This document shows positions 44,166 to 50,117 of a DNA stretch of 64,000 nt, one piece after another. Each line of letters opens with the position of its first letter. Within the stretch, counting starts at the first letter, position 1. The stretch lies in assembly GCA_900170005.1 (NCBI GenBank), contig LT827128.1:1918168-1982167 (forward strand), given 5' to 3'. This stretch comes from Gordonibacter massiliensis (ex Traore et al. 2017). GTDB lineage: Bacteria > Actinomycetota > Coriobacteriia > Coriobacteriales > Eggerthellaceae. The position numbers and the translations under genes were made by a program. The notes beneath the pieces were generated by a model that was given only the letters and a program-made list of their open reading frames with translations, searched no databases and was not told where the DNA came from.

Positions 44166-44195
44166 ACTAGCTCTGACCTGCGAATTCATGACCTT

Positions 44196-44230
44196 ACGCC
44201 CTCCTCATACCGATGGTATGAGGAGGGCGT
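44196..44230. terminator. Perfect 16-bp hairpin after the SDR gene
   Basis: ACGCCCTCCTCATACC (44196-44211) and its exact complement (44215-44230) enclose a GAT loop, 30 nt past the SDR stop and 170 nt upstream of the molybdoenzyme. No T run follows, so it may be a factor-assisted terminator or an insulating hairpin. Between it and 44,400 lies only the promoter region of the molybdoenzyme gene. Confidence 0.55.
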
Positions 44231-44399
44231 ACATACATAAATCACCTCTCGAAACTTTCATATACGTTCAGCGAGCGATATCCCTACGCGCACCGCTGTG
44301 AAACGATGCCAACAGGCTTTGGCTCGACACGGCCCCGCCCTGCGCGACGGCCGCGTCAAAACCAGAGGTTTTGGGGAACATGAAAGGAGAGGGAGCGTG

Positions 44400-46652
44400 A
44401 TGGTAGAGAAAAGAGACTACACCACCGTCGAACACGAAAAGCCGTATCGCTACGACGAAGACGGATTGCACGTGACCAGAGGGTGCGGATGGTCCGCACC
44501 GGGATGCCATCTGGGTTGCGGCGTCCTGCTGTACACCGATACGCACGGCAAGCTCGTCAAAGTGGAGGGAGACCCGGAGAACCCCTTCAACCAAGGGCGC
44601 CTGTGCGTCCGCTGCCTCGATTTGCCCGAGGTCGTCTATTCGCCGGACCGCATCCTGCATCCGATGAAGCGCGACCCCGAGAACCGCGGCAAGAACCGGT
44701 GGGAACAGGTGGGCTGGGACGAAGCGCTCGACGAAATCGCCCAGATAATGCTGGACGCCAAGGAAGAATACGGCCCGGAATCCGTTGCTTTCTACTCCGG
44801 AACCGGCCGCGACATCGGGCAGTACATCACGCGCTTGTGCTGGGGATTCAACAGCCCTAACTTCGTGTTCATGATGTCGGGCCAGTCGTGCTATTCCCCC
44901 CGCGTCGCAGGCTGCTTCTCCACCTCGGGCTCGTTCTGGGTCGGCGACTACGCGCAGCAGTTCCCCGACCGCTACGACAACCCGCAGTGGCAGCAGCCCG
45001 AACTCATCGTTATCTGGGGCAACAACCCCGTCGTCTCGAACTCCGACGGCCTGTACGGGCACTGGGTGGTCGACTGCATGAAGCGGGGCACGGCGGCCAT
45101 CGTCGTCGATCCCCGTCTCACCTGGCTCGCCTCGCGAGCCGAGCTCTTCCTGCAGATTCGACCCGGCACCGACGGCGCCCTTGCCCTCGGCATGGTGAAC
45201 TACCTCGTGGAAAACGACCTCTACGACCACGAGTTCGTCGATCTGTGGTGCTACGGCTTCGACGAGCTGGCGAAACGCGCTCAGGACTATCCGCTTGACG
45301 AGGTTGCCGAGATCACGGAGATCCCAGTGGAAGAGATCGCCGCCGCCGCTCGCCGCATCGGAGAGGCCGAGCGGGCCATCCTCCAATGGGGCGTCGCCAT
45401 CGACCAGATCAAGGAGACCATCCCAACCGCGCAGGCCGTGCTCGCCCTGTTCGAGATAACCGGCAACATCGGCAAGCCCGGCACGATGCAGCAACCCGCG
45501 AGCATCCTCAACTACGCAGCCGGCTGGGGCTCCGAATTCCTCACGCCGGAGCAGGAGGCGAAGCGCATCGGCCAAGAGGAGCATCCGCTCATCAAGATGG
45601 GTTTTCAGGAGTGCGTGACCGACGACTACATCAGGTGCCTCGAGACGGGCAAGCCCTACCCCATCAAGGTCGCGTGGATGCAGACCACCAACCCCTTGAC
45701 CTGCACGGGCGTCGACGCGAAGCGCACCCTTGCCGCGCACCTGAACATCGACACCATCGTGTGCGTGGACCTGTTCATGACGCCGACGGCGATGGCGCTG
45801 GCAGACTACTTCCTGCCCGCGTGCACGTACGCGGAGCGCAACGGGCTGCGCATCGGCGACGGCGCGCAGCGCGCCGAGACCATCAACAAGGCGATAGAGC
45901 CCTTGGGCGAGTCGAAGTCCGACATGCAGATAGCCCTCGAAATCGGCAAACGCATCTCGCCGGAGGCTTGGCCGTGGGAAACCGTAGAGGACATGTACTC
46001 CGACATCCTCGAAGAGACGGGGCATTCCTTCGAGGAAATGCAAGAGCTGGCGCCCGGCTATCCGCCATTCGATTACCGCATGCACGAGAAGGGGCTGCTG
46101 CGAACCGATGGCAACCCCGGTTTCCAAACCGCAACCGGGCGCATCGAGCTGTGGTGCACCATGTACAACTCCTTGGGCCTCGACCCGCTTCCCTCGTACG
46201 AGGAGCCCGTTCCCAGTCCTCGGTCGACGCCGGAGCTGTTCGAGGAGTATCCGCTCGTGCTCACGACGGGCGCCCGCGTTTGGAGCATGTTCCATTCGGA
46301 GCATCGCCAGATACCGCGCCTGCGCGCCCTTCACCCCGAGCCGCTCGTGTACGTCAACCCGGTTACCGCCGCGAGGCACGGCGTGAAAGACGGAGACTGG
46401 GTGTGGCTGGAGAACCAGCACGGGCGATGCAAGCGCCAGGTGCGCGAAACCCCCATCGTGAACGAGCACACCATCAACACCGACCACGCCTGGTGGCGTC
46501 CGGAGGCGCCCTGCGAGCTCGACGACGGCCTCTACGACCTGTGGGACCTCACCGTCGAGAACCTCCTGCCCTACGACTGCGGCGCATCCGGCTTCGGCGC
46601 GAACTACAAGAACACGATCTGCAAACTGTATCCGGCAGGGGAAGGAGCGTAG
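44400..46652 (+). CDS. Molybdopterin (bis-MGD) oxidoreductase, catechol dehydroxylase-like
   Basis: 750 aa from ATG 44400 with GGGAG close upstream; no Tat signal, so cytoplasmic. The N-terminal Fe-S region is VTRGCGWSAPGCHLGCGV...GRLCVRC with Cys 29, 36, 40, 69 and 72, an unusual spacing compared with the CxxCxxxC of formate dehydrogenases. Then FYSGTGRDIGQYITR, MMSGQSCYSPR (Cys164, candidate molybdenum ligand), IVIWGNNPVVSNSD, MQTTNPLTCTGVD, and the C-terminal MopB_CT with VLTTGARVWSMFHSEHRQIPRLRAL. Overall it resembles the acetylene hydratase/transhydroxylase-like branch that includes catechol dehydroxylases of gut Eggerthellaceae. Followed by its ferredoxin after 2 nt. Substrate is inference. 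Confidence 0.88.
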   Translation: MVEKRDYTTVEHEKPYRYDEDGLHVTRGCGWSAPGCHLGCGVLLYTDTHGKLVKVEGDPENPFNQGRLCVRCLDLPEVVYSPDRILHPMKRDPENRGKNRWEQVGWDEALDEIAQIMLDAKEEYGPESVAFYSGTGRDIGQYITRLCWGFNSPNFVFMMSGQSCYSPRVAGCFSTSGSFWVGDYAQQFPDRYDNPQWQQPELIVIWGNNPVVSNSDGLYGHWVVDCMKRGTAAIVVDPRLTWLASRAELFLQIRPGTDGALALGMVNYLVENDLYDHEFVDLWCYGFDELAKRAQDYPLDEVAEITEIPVEEIAAAARRIGEAERAILQWGVAIDQIKETIPTAQAVLALFEITGNIGKPGTMQQPASILNYAAGWGSEFLTPEQEAKRIGQEEHPLIKMGFQECVTDDYIRCLETGKPYPIKVAWMQTTNPLTCTGVDAKRTLAAHLNIDTIVCVDLFMTPTAMALADYFLPACTYAERNGLRIGDGAQRAETINKAIEPLGESKSDMQIALEIGKRISPEAWPWETVEDMYSDILEETGHSFEEMQELAPGYPPFDYRMHEKGLLRTDGNPGFQTATGRIELWCTMYNSLGLDPLPSYEEPVPSPRSTPELFEEYPLVLTTGARVWSMFHSEHRQIPRLRALHPEPLVYVNPVTAARHGVKDGDWVWLENQHGRCKRQVRETPIVNEHTINTDHAWWRPEAPCELDDGLYDLWDLTVENLLPYDCGASGFGANYKNTICKLYPAGEGA

Positions 46653-46654
46653 CG

Positions 46655-46999
46655 ATGGGTGCGAAAGGATTGTTGGTCGATTACGAGTGGTGCTCTGGCT
46701 GCCACACCTGCGAGGTGGCCTGCCAGCTTGAGCACGGCTACCCGAGCGATCAGTGGGGCATCAAGGTGCACGAGGTGGGCCCATGGGAATACGCCCCGAA
46801 GACGTGGCAGTACAGCTACCTGCCCGCGCCCACCGACCAGTGCGATTTGTGCGCCGACCGCATCGCGAAGGGCCATGAGCCCACCTGCGTGAAGCATTGC
46901 CAAGCGCAGGTTTTGAAGTACGGGGATCTTGAAAGCCTGGCGAAGGAGCTTGCCTGCAAACCGAAGCAGACCCTGTTCTGCTGCGACGCATCGGCATAA
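46655..46999 (+). CDS. 4Fe-4S dicluster ferredoxin-like electron transfer subunit
   Basis: 114 aa, ATG 46655 two nt after the molybdoenzyme stop, with GGAAGGAG seven nt upstream. Two cysteine groups: CSGCHTCEVAC (Cys 13, 16, 19, 23) and CDLCADRIAKGHEPTCVKHC (Cys 63, 66, 78, 82). These are half the number in DmsB/NrfC, so it carries at most two clusters. It should hand electrons to the molybdoenzyme in the cytoplasm. There is no membrane anchor gene, so the electron donor is likely soluble or another complex. Confidence 0.92.
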   Translation: MGAKGLLVDYEWCSGCHTCEVACQLEHGYPSDQWGIKVHEVGPWEYAPKTWQYSYLPAPTDQCDLCADRIAKGHEPTCVKHCQAQVLKYGDLESLAKELACKPKQTLFCCDASA

Positions 47000-47080
47000 A
47001 AACCAAAACTGTTCGTGCCGGCGCCCGACAAGAGGGGAAACAGATCGGCGCCGGCACCACCAAGAAAGGGGATACCAACA

Positions 47081-48310
47081 ATGAGCAAGAAAAGTCGGGC
47101 ATGGATACCCGTGTGGGCCATCATCATAGCCAGCGTGTTCATCGCGTTCGAGTACGGCAAGGTGCCGCCCGCCGCACCGAACATGATGGAGGTGCTCGGC
47201 ATCTCCTACACCACCCAGGGCCTCATGATGACGATGTTCTCCATCGCGGCCGTGGTCATGGCGCTGTTCGGCGGCGCGCTCATGGACCGTTTCGGCGCGC
47301 GCAAAGTGGTCAGCATCGCCCTGATCGTTTCCATCGTGGGCAACATCGCGGGTTTGTTCTGGACGAGCGACGCGGGAATCCTGGTAACCCGCGCGCTCGA
47401 GGGCTGCGGGTACGGCGCGGCCATGACCGCCGGACCGGGCATTATCGCCATGTGGTACGAGCCGAAGAAGCGCGGGCTCGCCAACGGCGTGTGGGGCGCG
47501 AACGTCGGCTTCGCCATGATGATCGTGACGTTGTCCGCCACCCCCATCATGGAGAACGGCAACTGGACCGGCATGTGGGTGTTCGGCCTCGTAGGAGCCG
47601 TGCTGGCCTTCCTGCTGGTGATCGTGTGCGTCAAGGCTCCCGCCGAATCCGAGCGCAAGGACTTGGAGGAATCCGTCGACGGCAAAGAGGATTCCGAGAA
47701 GCACGGGGTTCTGTGGGGCTACCTTGCGCCGCTGTCCCTCCTGAGCGCCGTCATGTTCTTCCTCGTCGGCGGCTCGACCGACGCGTTCAACGCTTTCACC
47801 ATTCCGTTCCTGAACGTCGAGAACGGCTGGAGCGAGGGCGCGGCGAACCTGTGCGCGACCATCGCGGCGGCGGGCATGTTGGTCGGCGGCACCGCCATGG
47901 GCCTCGTTCTCGCGCGGACGAAGGACAAGGGCATGCTTCTTTTCGTCGATATGCTGGTGTGCGCCATTGGCCTCTTCCTGTGGTTTAATCTGGACATCGG
48001 CGTTGTCGGAACGTATGTCGTCGCCTTTGTTCTCGGATGCTTCCTCGGTGCCGCCCCGACCGTGTTCTTCGCGATGGCTCCCGAAGTCGCGCGCTCGCCG
48101 AAAACGGTTGGCGCCGCAACCGCCGTCGTGGTGCTCGGGCAAAACGGCGGCACGTTGGCGGTGCCCGCGATCGTCGGCATGATTCTCGACAGCGCCGGCT
48201 ACGGCGCGGCGGCAATAACCATGGGCGCGTTGTCTTTGGCAGCATGCGCGATCTGCCTGTTCGCGTTCCGCCGCATCTACAACAAGAGCAGCCGCAGCAC
48301 GCTCGAATAG
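47081..48310 (+). CDS. MFS transporter of the molybdoenzyme cluster
   Basis: 409 aa from ATG 47081, AAAGGGG nine nt upstream. About 12 TM helices; GGALMDRFGARKVV is the loop 2-3 motif and GPGIIAMWYEPKKRGLANGVWGANVGFAM the loop 4-5 region, like the oxalate/formate and aromatic acid type (OFA/NNP-like) MFS group. Eighty nt after the ferredoxin gene on the same strand, followed by a terminator. Probably imports the substrate of the molybdoenzyme or exports its product. Confidence 0.87.
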   Translation: MSKKSRAWIPVWAIIIASVFIAFEYGKVPPAAPNMMEVLGISYTTQGLMMTMFSIAAVVMALFGGALMDRFGARKVVSIALIVSIVGNIAGLFWTSDAGILVTRALEGCGYGAAMTAGPGIIAMWYEPKKRGLANGVWGANVGFAMMIVTLSATPIMENGNWTGMWVFGLVGAVLAFLLVIVCVKAPAESERKDLEESVDGKEDSEKHGVLWGYLAPLSLLSAVMFFLVGGSTDAFNAFTIPFLNVENGWSEGAANLCATIAAAGMLVGGTAMGLVLARTKDKGMLLFVDMLVCAIGLFLWFNLDIGVVGTYVVAFVLGCFLGAAPTVFFAMAPEVARSPKTVGAATAVVVLGQNGGTLAVPAIVGMILDSAGYGAAAITMGALSLAACAICLFAFRRIYNKSSRSTLE

Positions 48311-48337
48311 CGACAGGTCGAATACGCGGTTTAAAAC

Positions 48338-48367
48338 GGTGGGCGTCGGTTTCGACCGACGCCCACC
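48338..48367 (+). terminator. 13-bp stem with TTCG tetraloop
   Basis: GGTGGGCGTCGGT and its complement flank a TTCG loop 27 nt after the transporter stop. The stem is very stable; the downstream T run is minimal (TTG). It separates the enzyme-ferredoxin-transporter unit from the regulator genes. Confidence 0.65.
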
Positions 48368-48393
48368 TTGAAGGTTCGAGATGAGGTAGCGTT

Positions 48394-48621
48394 ATGAGGG
48401 AGCATTGCTTTCCGTGCCGAAACTGCGGGAAATGCCATCCCCCCTTCCGCCAAGGTTTGTGCCCCGCCTGCATGAGCATGAACGAAAGCGGTGCGAAGAC
48501 GTGCAAAACCTGCGGTTTCGTCTTCCCCGGCTCGCCCGGAACGAAAGGTGGTTTGGATGGCTTTCACCGCACGGCGCAGAAAAGACGAGGCTTAGCCGAG
48601 ACCACAGGAGAAGACCGTTGA
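48394..48621 (+). CDS. Zinc-ribbon microprotein coupled to the LuxR gene
   Basis: 75 aa. ATG 48394 has GAGGT six nt upstream, and its TGA overlaps the TTG start of the regulator (TTGA), which supports real translation. Cysteine pairs at CFPCRNCGKC, CPAC and CKTCG (eight Cys in the first 40 residues) form one or two zinc-ribbon folds; the C-terminal 35 residues are basic and disordered-looking. Function unknown; it may bind metal, nucleic acid or the membrane regulator encoded next. Confidence 0.7.
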   Translation: MREHCFPCRNCGKCHPPFRQGLCPACMSMNESGAKTCKTCGFVFPGSPGTKGGLDGFHRTAQKRRGLAETTGEDR

Positions 48622-50117
48622 CCGCTCAAGAGAGGCAGCTATTTCCCGGAAACGAAGACGCGAAGCCAACCGAAGACGTCGCCCGCGACCTGCTCATCGG
48701 CAATAGCTCGAGACGCGTCATCTTGGGCATCGTCGCGCTGGCCGCCTACTGGGCCTGGATCTTCTCGATTTTCCACGCGAACGTGCTGAACCCGTTTTCC
48801 ACGCCGGATTTCAGCACCTATCTTCTGCTTTGCGTTGTCGTTGCAGGCAGCTCCGCGCTCAGCATGATCGTGTTCGCCCTGCTCGGTTGGTATCTGCAGC
48901 GCCTCGTCGACCGCAGGTGGTTTACGGTCGGCGTCGCTTTACTGTCGATTTTGGCGGAGGTTCCCGCGTTTCTCGGGCAGGTGGGAGGCGAACTCGACTT
49001 CATGCAAGCGGGCGCGCTGTTCGCTCTCGGAGGATTCGCGTCCTCGTTCGTCTATTTGAAGACCGGTCCCTTCTTCGTGTGGCTTCGGCGTGCCAAGCTC
49101 ATGCGCAGCATTGCGCTTGCGTTCCTCTTGGCGTCGCTTTTATACGTTCTGCCGCTGTTCATGAATCCCGTGGTGGGCATCGTCATGATAGCCTCCTTCC
49201 CCGTCGTTTCCGTTGCGTGCTCGCACCTGGCGAACAAAGGCATGGGACCGAAGCGGCTCGAGGCCGCCACGTCGTACCGCGCCTACCTCAAAGCGGTTCT
49301 CGAACGGTTCCGCGAGTTCGTCCCCACGTTGCCCCGTACCCTTTTGTACGCGCTTGTGTTCGGCGTGACGTCTTACGCCGTGCTCAACCTCGCCGTGGAG
49401 AACGGGTTGGTTGCGGTGATCGCCGCCTCGATTGCGGTATCGTCTTTGGCGTTTGCGGTGTACGTGCTGTCGAAGAAAGTGGAGGCCGACTCCGATTTGT
49501 ACCGCATGCTCCTTCTTCCGCTTATCGCCCTTGCGGTGCTGCCGTTTCCCTATGTTCCAGAACTGCTTAAGATCTTTTTCCTAGCGTTGGTCATTTTTGG
49601 GTTCACCTGCTTCGACGCTATAACCTGGGGCGATTTGGCCGACGAGATAAGCGACCGCCAGCTGCCGATATACGTGTCGTACGCGCCGCCCACCATCGGC
49701 AACTTCGTGGGCATCTTCATCGGATGGTCGGTTGGGGCGCTGCTGTATGCCGAGCTGGAAAGCGCGGGGTTCGATACGGGATTCTCCATCTTCTCGATAA
49801 TCATCGTGATCGCGCTGGTGGTGCTGCTGGTGTGGGATCTCGTGAAAAGTCGGAAGGAAGAATCCGGCGAGCCGCAGGCGGACGCGTTTCTGGACAAGTG
49901 GAAAGCGGCGTGCGAAGAGATCGCCGAAGCGCACGAGCTGACCAACCAGGAGACGAGAATCCACACGATGCTGGCGCGCGGGCGAAACCAGCACTACATT
50001 GCGGAAGAGCTGGTCATCTCGCCGCACACCATCAAGACCCACACCTACCATATATACAAGAAGCTGGGCGTGCACTCGCAGCAGGAACTGATCGACATGG
50101 TCGAGGCCAAGCTGTAG
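48618..50117 (+). CDS. LuxR family regulator with about 12 membrane helices
   Basis: 499 aa from TTG 48618 (AGGAG seven nt upstream), coupled to the microprotein gene. Residues about 30-410 form paired hydrophobic helices resembling an MFS-like fold (VILGIVALAAYWAWIFSIF through IFSIIIVIALVVLLVWDLV). The C-terminal 65 residues are a GerE-type helix-turn-helix: LTNQETRIHTMLARGRNQHYIAEELVISPHTIKTHTYHIYKKLGVHSQQELID. Membrane-spanning LuxR proteins of this sort are abundant in Eggerthella relatives and often sit next to molybdoenzyme genes whose substrates they sense. Likely induces the 44,400 operon. Confidence 0.9.
   Translation: MTAQERQLFPGNEDAKPTEDVARDLLIGNSSRRVILGIVALAAYWAWIFSIFHANVLNPFSTPDFSTYLLLCVVVAGSSALSMIVFALLGWYLQRLVDRRWFTVGVALLSILAEVPAFLGQVGGELDFMQAGALFALGGFASSFVYLKTGPFFVWLRRAKLMRSIALAFLLASLLYVLPLFMNPVVGIVMIASFPVVSVACSHLANKGMGPKRLEAATSYRAYLKAVLERFREFVPTLPRTLLYALVFGVTSYAVLNLAVENGLVAVIAASIAVSSLAFAVYVLSKKVEADSDLYRMLLLPLIALAVLPFPYVPELLKIFFLALVIFGFTCFDAITWGDLADEISDRQLPIYVSYAPPTIGNFVGIFIGWSVGALLYAELESAGFDTGFSIFSIIIVIALVVLLVWDLVKSRKEESGEPQADAFLDKWKAACEEIAEAHELTNQETRIHTMLARGRNQHYIAEELVISPHTIKTHTYHIYKKLGVHSQQELIDMVEAKL

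Follow-up and report, generated by a model that had tools for sequence, protein, structure and literature searches.

A putative Gordonibacter-type catechol dehydroxylase module in Gordonibacter massiliensis and its apparently undescribed microprotein

Gene content and conservation of the locus

We analysed a five-gene locus of Gordonibacter massiliensis (ex Traore et al. 2017) that lies in a window, the whole stretch under study, of 64,000 nucleotides (nt) of contig LT827128.1. On one strand it encodes a molybdoenzyme related to catechol dehydroxylases, a small iron-sulfur (Fe-S) protein, a transporter, a cysteine-rich microprotein and a membrane LuxR-type regulator (Table 1). A previous sequence-only reading had called all five genes, and coordinates, open reading frames (ORFs) and Pfam matches agree on their places. 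Two kinds of catechol dehydroxylase have been distinguished in the literature. The kind from Gordonibacter pamelaeae is described as smaller, without a twin-arginine translocation (Tat) signal, and accompanied by a small 4Fe-4S protein and an adjacent gene of the major facilitator superfamily (MFS) (PMC7028382); it has since been named the Gordonibacter type (PMC11887054, JACS 2025). More than 30 uncharacterised catechol dehydroxylases are typical of each Gordonibacter or Ellagibacter strain (PNAS 2025). The host genome (G000), a single contig of 3.95 Mb with 85 PF00384 matches, has a very large molybdoenzyme repertoire, and 36 of its loci were counted as being of the Gordonibacter type or near it.

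Table 1. Genes and features of the locus (positions in the window; aa, amino acids; bis-MGD, bis(molybdopterin guanine dinucleotide); HTH, helix-turn-helix)
Feature	Position	Strand	Remarks
Catalytic subunit, Gordonibacter-type bis-MGD catechol dehydroxylase family	44400..46652	+	750 aa, ATG start
Small two-cluster [4Fe-4S] electron-transfer subunit	46655..46999	+	114 aa; starts 2 nt past the enzyme stop
MFS transporter, presumed importer or exchanger of substrate/product	47081..48310	+	409 aa
Conserved 13-bp RNA hairpin with TTCG loop, without T-run, between transporter and microprotein genes	48338..48367	+	
Class A 8-Cys microprotein	48394..48621	+	75 aa; conserved core of about 54 aa
Membrane LuxR-type regulator	48618..50117	+	499 aa, TTG start; about 12 predicted helices, then GerE HTH

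The enzyme matches the Pfam families Molybdopterin (1.7e-40), Molydop_binding and Fe4S4. Its N-terminus has neither a twin arginine nor a hydrophobic stretch, as judged by eye and by hydropathy, no membrane helix was seen, and no Tat signal or membrane anchor subunit occurs within the five-gene unit. The Fe-S protein matches Fer4_11 (4.7e-6), with a DmsB-like match (1.7e-14) that stays under its cut-off, and is 72-96% identical in 7/7 other orthologous loci compared. The transporter matches MFS_1 (1e-45).

The regulator ends in a Pfam GerE domain, the LuxR HTH (3.7e-15), which follows 12 long helices in an AlphaFold2 model of low confidence (mean predicted local distance difference test score, pLDDT, 47); crude hydropathy gives 14 partly overlapping windows. 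A family of LuxR regulators with 10-12 transmembrane (TM) segments is known, and DadR, HcdR and CadR activate the neighbouring enzyme gene in response to the substrate (PMC9734109). Like these three, the regulator of the window carries a C-terminal GerE domain behind about 12 predicted helices and adjoins a molybdoenzyme; unlike them, it lies on the enzyme strand after the microprotein gene. Its identity to the non-orthologous LuxR proteins compared is low, at about 24-30%. The membrane part also gives a weak, sub-threshold MFS_1 match (2.7e-7), which is missing from four other membrane LuxR proteins at E <= 0.01, so we do not claim an MFS origin of the sensor.

The order enzyme, Fe-S protein, transporter, microprotein, regulator is held in five Gordonibacter genomes including that of the window, one of them with broken copies. 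Enzyme orthologs are 97% (Gordonibacter sp. 28C), 94% (Candidatus Gordonibacter avicola), 93% (G. pamelaeae 7-10-1-b) and 85% (uncultured Gordonibacter) identical to the enzyme of the window, and the flanking DNA aligns in 4/4 orthologous loci tested. Because the gene order is kept and the flanks align, the locus looks like a vertically inherited one and not a recent insertion.

The catalytic subunit among catechol dehydroxylases

We placed the enzyme in two trees, the first with 81 rows and the second with 50 of those rows under a mixture model; both come from short searches and carry only Shimodaira-Hasegawa-like approximate likelihood ratio test (SH-aLRT) support. One row (L058), off-frame in the first tree, was excluded from the second and from the identity and conserved-column analysis. 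In both trees a single clade (support 100 and 99) unites every Gordonibacter-type row with Dodh, Eldh1/2 and the G. pamelaeae hydrocaffeate dehydroxylase Gp Hcdh; this clade is separate from the Eggerthella lenta enzymes, acetylene hydratase, PsrA and formate dehydrogenase H (FdhH). This clade with characterised members bears out the sequence-only reading, which had assigned the enzyme, with its transporter and membrane LuxR protein, to the catechol dehydroxylase branch. The window enzyme is, on its sequence, a sound member of the published Gordonibacter-type family, whose layout is already known: it shares with Dodh, (-)-Eddh/Cldh, (+)-Eldh1/2, Gp Hcdh, Gs Vadh and Eadh1-3 a short cytoplasmic bis-MGD subunit, a 4Fe-4S partner and an MFS protein, and the LuxR gene that is often present there is present here as well.

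The relatives named in that reading (Dadh, Hcdh and Cadh) belong to the Tat-exported Eggerthella type; the window enzyme belongs to the cytoplasmic Gordonibacter type. Enzymes of the Eggerthella type (Dadh, El Hcdh, Cadh) have Tat signals and membrane anchors, with Dadh and El Hcdh exceeding 1000 aa; they form a separate clade and are 27-30% identical to the window enzyme. They are LuxR-controlled and substrate-induced, and the window locus likewise has a LuxR gene. The window enzyme also has in common with Dadh and El Hcdh the residues of an H-x-E-x-R motif (H632, E634 and R636), which are absent from acetylene hydratase, PsrA and FdhH.

Four characterised members could be located in G. pamelaeae. 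Dodh was found by both published dodh quantitative PCR primers, which match exactly one locus, and (+)-Eldh1 and (+)-Eldh2 as a tandem pair at a position that agrees with GPA_25810/25800; the two are 73.9% identical to each other (published, 74%). Gp Hcdh has the published length of 770 aa and a LuxR gene about 4.5 kb away; this LuxR protein is 45% identical (published, 44%) to an E. lenta counterpart, the best of 42 LuxR ORFs compared. The counterpart lies about 7 kb from the sole E. lenta dehydroxylase outside the dadh and cadh regions. Taken from MANLSL onward, this dehydroxylase comes to 1193 aa by our own count, which is the published length. With all four located, identity of the window enzyme with any one of them is excluded. 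Its identity is 41.9% to Dodh, 46.3% to Eldh1, 45.4% to Eldh2 and 41.0% to Gp Hcdh, in every case well short of the 72% cut-off for one function applied by Bae et al., a shortfall that concerns the substrate and leaves membership of the family untouched. Unlike these members, it stands in its own subclade (support 99), outside both the Dodh/Eldh clade and the Hcdh clade, and with this distance the substrate is therefore not transferable from them. Seven of its members are encoded in the window genome itself, three of them clustered at 328-342 kb. Elsewhere in the family, the enzyme at G001 3508093-3510717 is 52-54% identical to Eldh1/2 and 47% to Dodh (published, 45%), without being a direct tree neighbour of Eldh1/2 or the ortholog of the window enzyme, and is possibly (-)-Eddh, judging from these identities. 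No convincing candidate for Eah, the decarboxylase expected to mark Eadh1/2, emerged from a crude motif search over the retrieved regions of two genomes.

Among solved structures the closest to the enzyme is acetylene hydratase (PDB 2e7z; 305.9 bits, 33% over the aligned part), followed by thiosulfate reductase (220.6 bits, 85 bits behind) and then formate dehydrogenases. The same closest solved relative has been published for catechol dehydroxylases (PMC7028382). The enzyme has four cluster-type cysteines (C36, C40, C69 and C72), and its C164 corresponds in the alignment to an acetylene hydratase cysteine, the metal ligand of that enzyme. Next to C36, position 37 is histidine in 71/71 Gordonibacter-type rows with a residue at that column, while acetylene hydratase has an aspartate there (Asp13); a further difference is that the window enzyme is accompanied by an electron-transfer subunit.

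Could the enzyme then be a bis-MGD reductase or a hydratase/lyase of the acetylene hydratase branch with a substrate that is not a catechol? Its distance from the located characterised members, and a subclade with seven members in the window genome and no located characterised member among them, would fit such a role, and acetylene hydratase itself is a non-redox enzyme. However, the window enzyme retains 73/73 columns that are conserved at >97% across 73 Gordonibacter-type rows (itself included), C164 and H37 among them, and so has histidine at the acetylene hydratase aspartate column. A cognate Fe-S electron-transfer subunit is present, and the Gordonibacter-type enzymes characterised in the literature consulted dehydroxylate catechols (PMC11887054). 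We consider a non-catechol substrate unlikely. More distant assignments fare worse: nitrate and dimethyl sulfoxide (DMSO) reductases are ruled out by score (127 and 99 bits, in comparison with 306 for acetylene hydratase), formate dehydrogenase H and thiosulfate/polysulfide reductase by score and by both trees. The transhydroxylase option of the sequence-only reading is very unlikely by score, without a tree placement, as pyrogallol hydroxytransferase scored 40.8 bits and ranked 59th among the 60 hits shown out of 64.

The Fe-S motif of the Gordonibacter-type enzymes (C36/C40/C69/C72) looks rearranged in that the usual first cysteine is unconserved, and the final two cluster ligands may come from a CxRC pair (cysteine present in 65-68 of 73 rows). 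All four cluster cysteines are absent from Gp Hcdh (L144:8090-10402), from its L073:2849-5161 ortholog (window genome 174848-177160) and from a third catalytic subunit at G000 295106-297454, the residues at 36/40/69/72 in such subunits being S/Y/N/N and E/W/S/F. From its sequence, the catalytic subunit of the highly transcribed hydrocaffeate dehydroxylase may function with no [4Fe-4S] cluster of its own.

Two classes of cysteine-rich microprotein

The microprotein of the window gives only sub-threshold zinc-ribbon and DZR matches in Pfam, and its eight cysteines (CxxCxxCxxC...CxxC...CxxC) amount to more than one simple zinc ribbon, so that its earlier description as a zinc-ribbon protein captures part of it. 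The core is under purifying selection, with ratios of nonsynonymous to synonymous substitution rates (dN/dS) of 0.10-0.23 (six pairs from four orthologs, 54 codons). An AlphaFold2 model built with three sequences was not usable (pLDDT 57, predicted template modelling score, pTM, 0.37). Profile searches in the dehydroxylase neighbourhoods of two genomes gave 49 similar ORFs of less than 200 aa, some fragmentary or doubtful, which fall into two classes. Class A, to which the window protein belongs, has eight invariant cysteines in 20/20 aligned members (CxxCxxCxxC, CxxC, CxxCG). Class B starts with MCFRP and has two CPxCG knuckles, five invariant cysteines and a Pro/Gly/Ala tail of the type PGAPGAPKAPGAPKPP (16 aligned members). 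In both classes, zinc ribbons come up most often among the Pfam matches; the microprotein shares the CxxC knuckles of DZR, Zn_Ribbon_1 and Zn_ribbon_3, with matches below the curated cut-offs in the members whose scores were shown, and the CxxCxxCxxC start, the MCFRP start and the Pro/Gly/Ala tail fall outside the zinc-ribbon model matches shown. Literature searches, which reached neither supplements nor subscription papers, found no description of either class among the papers listed, and the word 'zinc' is absent from the main text of the dehydroxylase papers searched. These microproteins, apparently undescribed, are what the locus adds to the known layout.

The cysteines could suggest an iron- or zinc-binding electron carrier, rubredoxin-like, that feeds the dehydroxylase. 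The invariance of all eight in class A is compatible with this, as CxxCxxCxxC could hold an Fe-S cluster, and there are isolated weak Fer4_2 and rubredoxin-like matches, each in one member. Yet a dedicated two-cluster Fe-S subunit is already present at the locus, and both the five invariant cysteines of class B and the prevalence of zinc-ribbon matches point elsewhere, which makes a carrier role improbable.

A second alternative takes the microprotein as a partner of the LuxR protein, for example an anti-activator or a metal or redox sensor, and the sequence-only reading had paired the two. In the window and in strain 28C, and only there, the TTG start of the LuxR gene overlaps the microprotein TGA by 4 nt (TTGA). 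The microprotein ends earlier in Ca. G. avicola and in the G069 genome, leaving 23 and 22 nt, respectively, to the LuxR gene. One class A gene follows the LuxR gene at G000 340230-341660 by 10 nt, another precedes the LuxR gene at G001 3485967 by 68 nt, and LuxR is the nearest labelled same-strand gene for 5/29 class A genes, in comparison with 0/20 of class B. The nearest such gene encodes the enzyme, the Fe-S protein or the transporter for 21/29 class A and 18/20 class B genes, however, and E. lenta uses the same LuxR family without class A or B microproteins. The pairing does not hold up in G086 and G087, whose enzymes are 72-73% identical to that of the window: there the microprotein gene still follows enzyme, Fe-S protein and transporter, and the LuxR gene lies upstream of the enzyme (LuxR identity 47-51% over the part seen, which is cut by the end of the stretch). 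The microprotein is therefore read as part of the enzyme unit, a view supported by gene order and co-occurrence, and partnership with LuxR seems unlikely to us.

Class B genes occur at loci of characterised enzymes or their orthologs: upstream of both Gp Hcdh and Dodh and, in the window genome, after the Eldh2 ortholog. Two class A genes of neighbouring enzyme operons converge at G000 332828-333125 (L079), with overlapping tails and cysteine cores that stay apart.

Across 138 genomes of the family, a Gordonibacter-type enzyme match at E <= 1e-150 was found in 56, with at most seven candidates scored per genome, so that this is a measure of presence only. Strong microprotein matches (best E <= 1e-10, a cut-off picked after seeing the tables, and counted by hand) occur for class B in 53/56 enzyme genomes versus 4/82 others (G020, G043, G097 and G120), and for class A in 45/56 versus 2/82 (G020 and G123); Fisher tests were run on these 138-genome counts, uncorrected for genome relatedness. 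E. lenta (G054) has no class A or B match at E <= 1e-5. In the window genome, a PF00384 match is found no more than 5 kb away for 18/19 class A and 19/20 class B matches, in comparison with 20.8% of random points; for the 36 Gordonibacter-type loci only, the figures are 16/19 and 14/20 versus 8.9%. The seeds of both classes came from enzyme neighbourhoods of two genomes, and co-location there is partly circular. In G086, which contributed no seeds, 19/20 class B intervals hold a bis-MGD ORF versus 5/20 random intervals. The 20 intervals of 10 kb cover all 25 class B matches, with two overlapping pairs, and two of the random intervals with a bis-MGD ORF (L202 and L217) overlap a class B interval.

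Four class B genes of the window genome are more than 30 kb from any of the 36 loci and stand beside bis-MGD enzymes that are more remote relatives of the Gordonibacter type (L222, G000 449035; L223, 1104172; L224, 1047640; L225, 2543837). From such positions, the class B family may serve a wider set of molybdoenzymes.

Proposed function of the module

We read the locus as a catechol dehydroxylase module of the Gordonibacter type, self-contained and vertically inherited, that would act on some catechol; going by sequence comparison, we give this a probability of about 0.78. By analogy with characterised relatives, the MFS protein would import the catechol into the cytoplasm, where the predicted 12-TM LuxR protein, acting like DadR, HcdR and CadR, would sense it and activate the operon. 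As in other family members, electrons would pass from the small Fe-S protein through the [4Fe-4S] cluster of the enzyme (C36/C40/C69/C72) to the bis-MGD metal bound by C164, at which one ring hydroxyl would be removed reductively, the catechol serving as electron acceptor for anaerobic respiration. The Gordonibacter genomes compared retain the enzyme together with its transporter and regulator, one of them as broken copies; because of this retention, a recurring compound of dietary or host origin is the probable substrate.

For the microprotein, the likeliest role in this context is, tentatively, a dedicated assembly or stability factor for the enzyme, with a regulator partner or an electron carrier next. 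A broader and somewhat more doubtful proposal is that the cytoplasmic bis-MGD dehydroxylases of gut Coriobacteriia come with a class A or B microprotein that acts as an enzyme-specific maturation or gating factor, in which case the published two-subunit picture of these enzymes would lack a component. The two families are useful markers, as matches in the two genomes studied in detail usually lie close to a bis-MGD enzyme. The microproteins also offer a candidate component that can be tested with enzymes whose heterologous production is difficult.

Several observations weigh against these readings. With 41-46% identity, far under 72%, even a catechol substrate is an extrapolation from sequence, and the identities cover the four located members, with Gs Vadh, (-)-Eddh and Eadh1-3 outside the set. 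The trees leave unsettled a joint clade of both dehydroxylase types that excludes acetylene hydratase. In the G. pamelaeae 7-10-1-b type strain (L056:10001-12244, L172) three of the genes are damaged: an amber stop interrupts the enzyme, a frameshift the microprotein and an in-frame stop the LuxR protein, lesions that reflect either decay or sequencing error. Strong class B matches are missing from 3/56 enzyme genomes (G092, G105 and G118) and strong class A matches from 11/56. Gordonibacter dehydroxylases are active when expressed in E. lenta (PMC11887054). Activity in this host, which has no microprotein match, argues against maturation as a strictly required role, provided that the gene was absent from the constructs.

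Behind the transporter gene, where the sequence-only reading had placed a terminator, there is indeed a conserved hairpin (Table 1), a 13-bp perfect stem with no T-run after it, and the terminator scan does not list it. RNAalifold retains the hairpin in seven aligned orthologous loci including that of the window, with at least one compensatory change at 7/11 predicted pairs and 6/77 cells broken or gapped. Upstream of the enzyme gene, at 44195-44231, lies a 17-bp perfect inverted repeat with a 3-nt spacer, either an operator or the terminator of the preceding gene.

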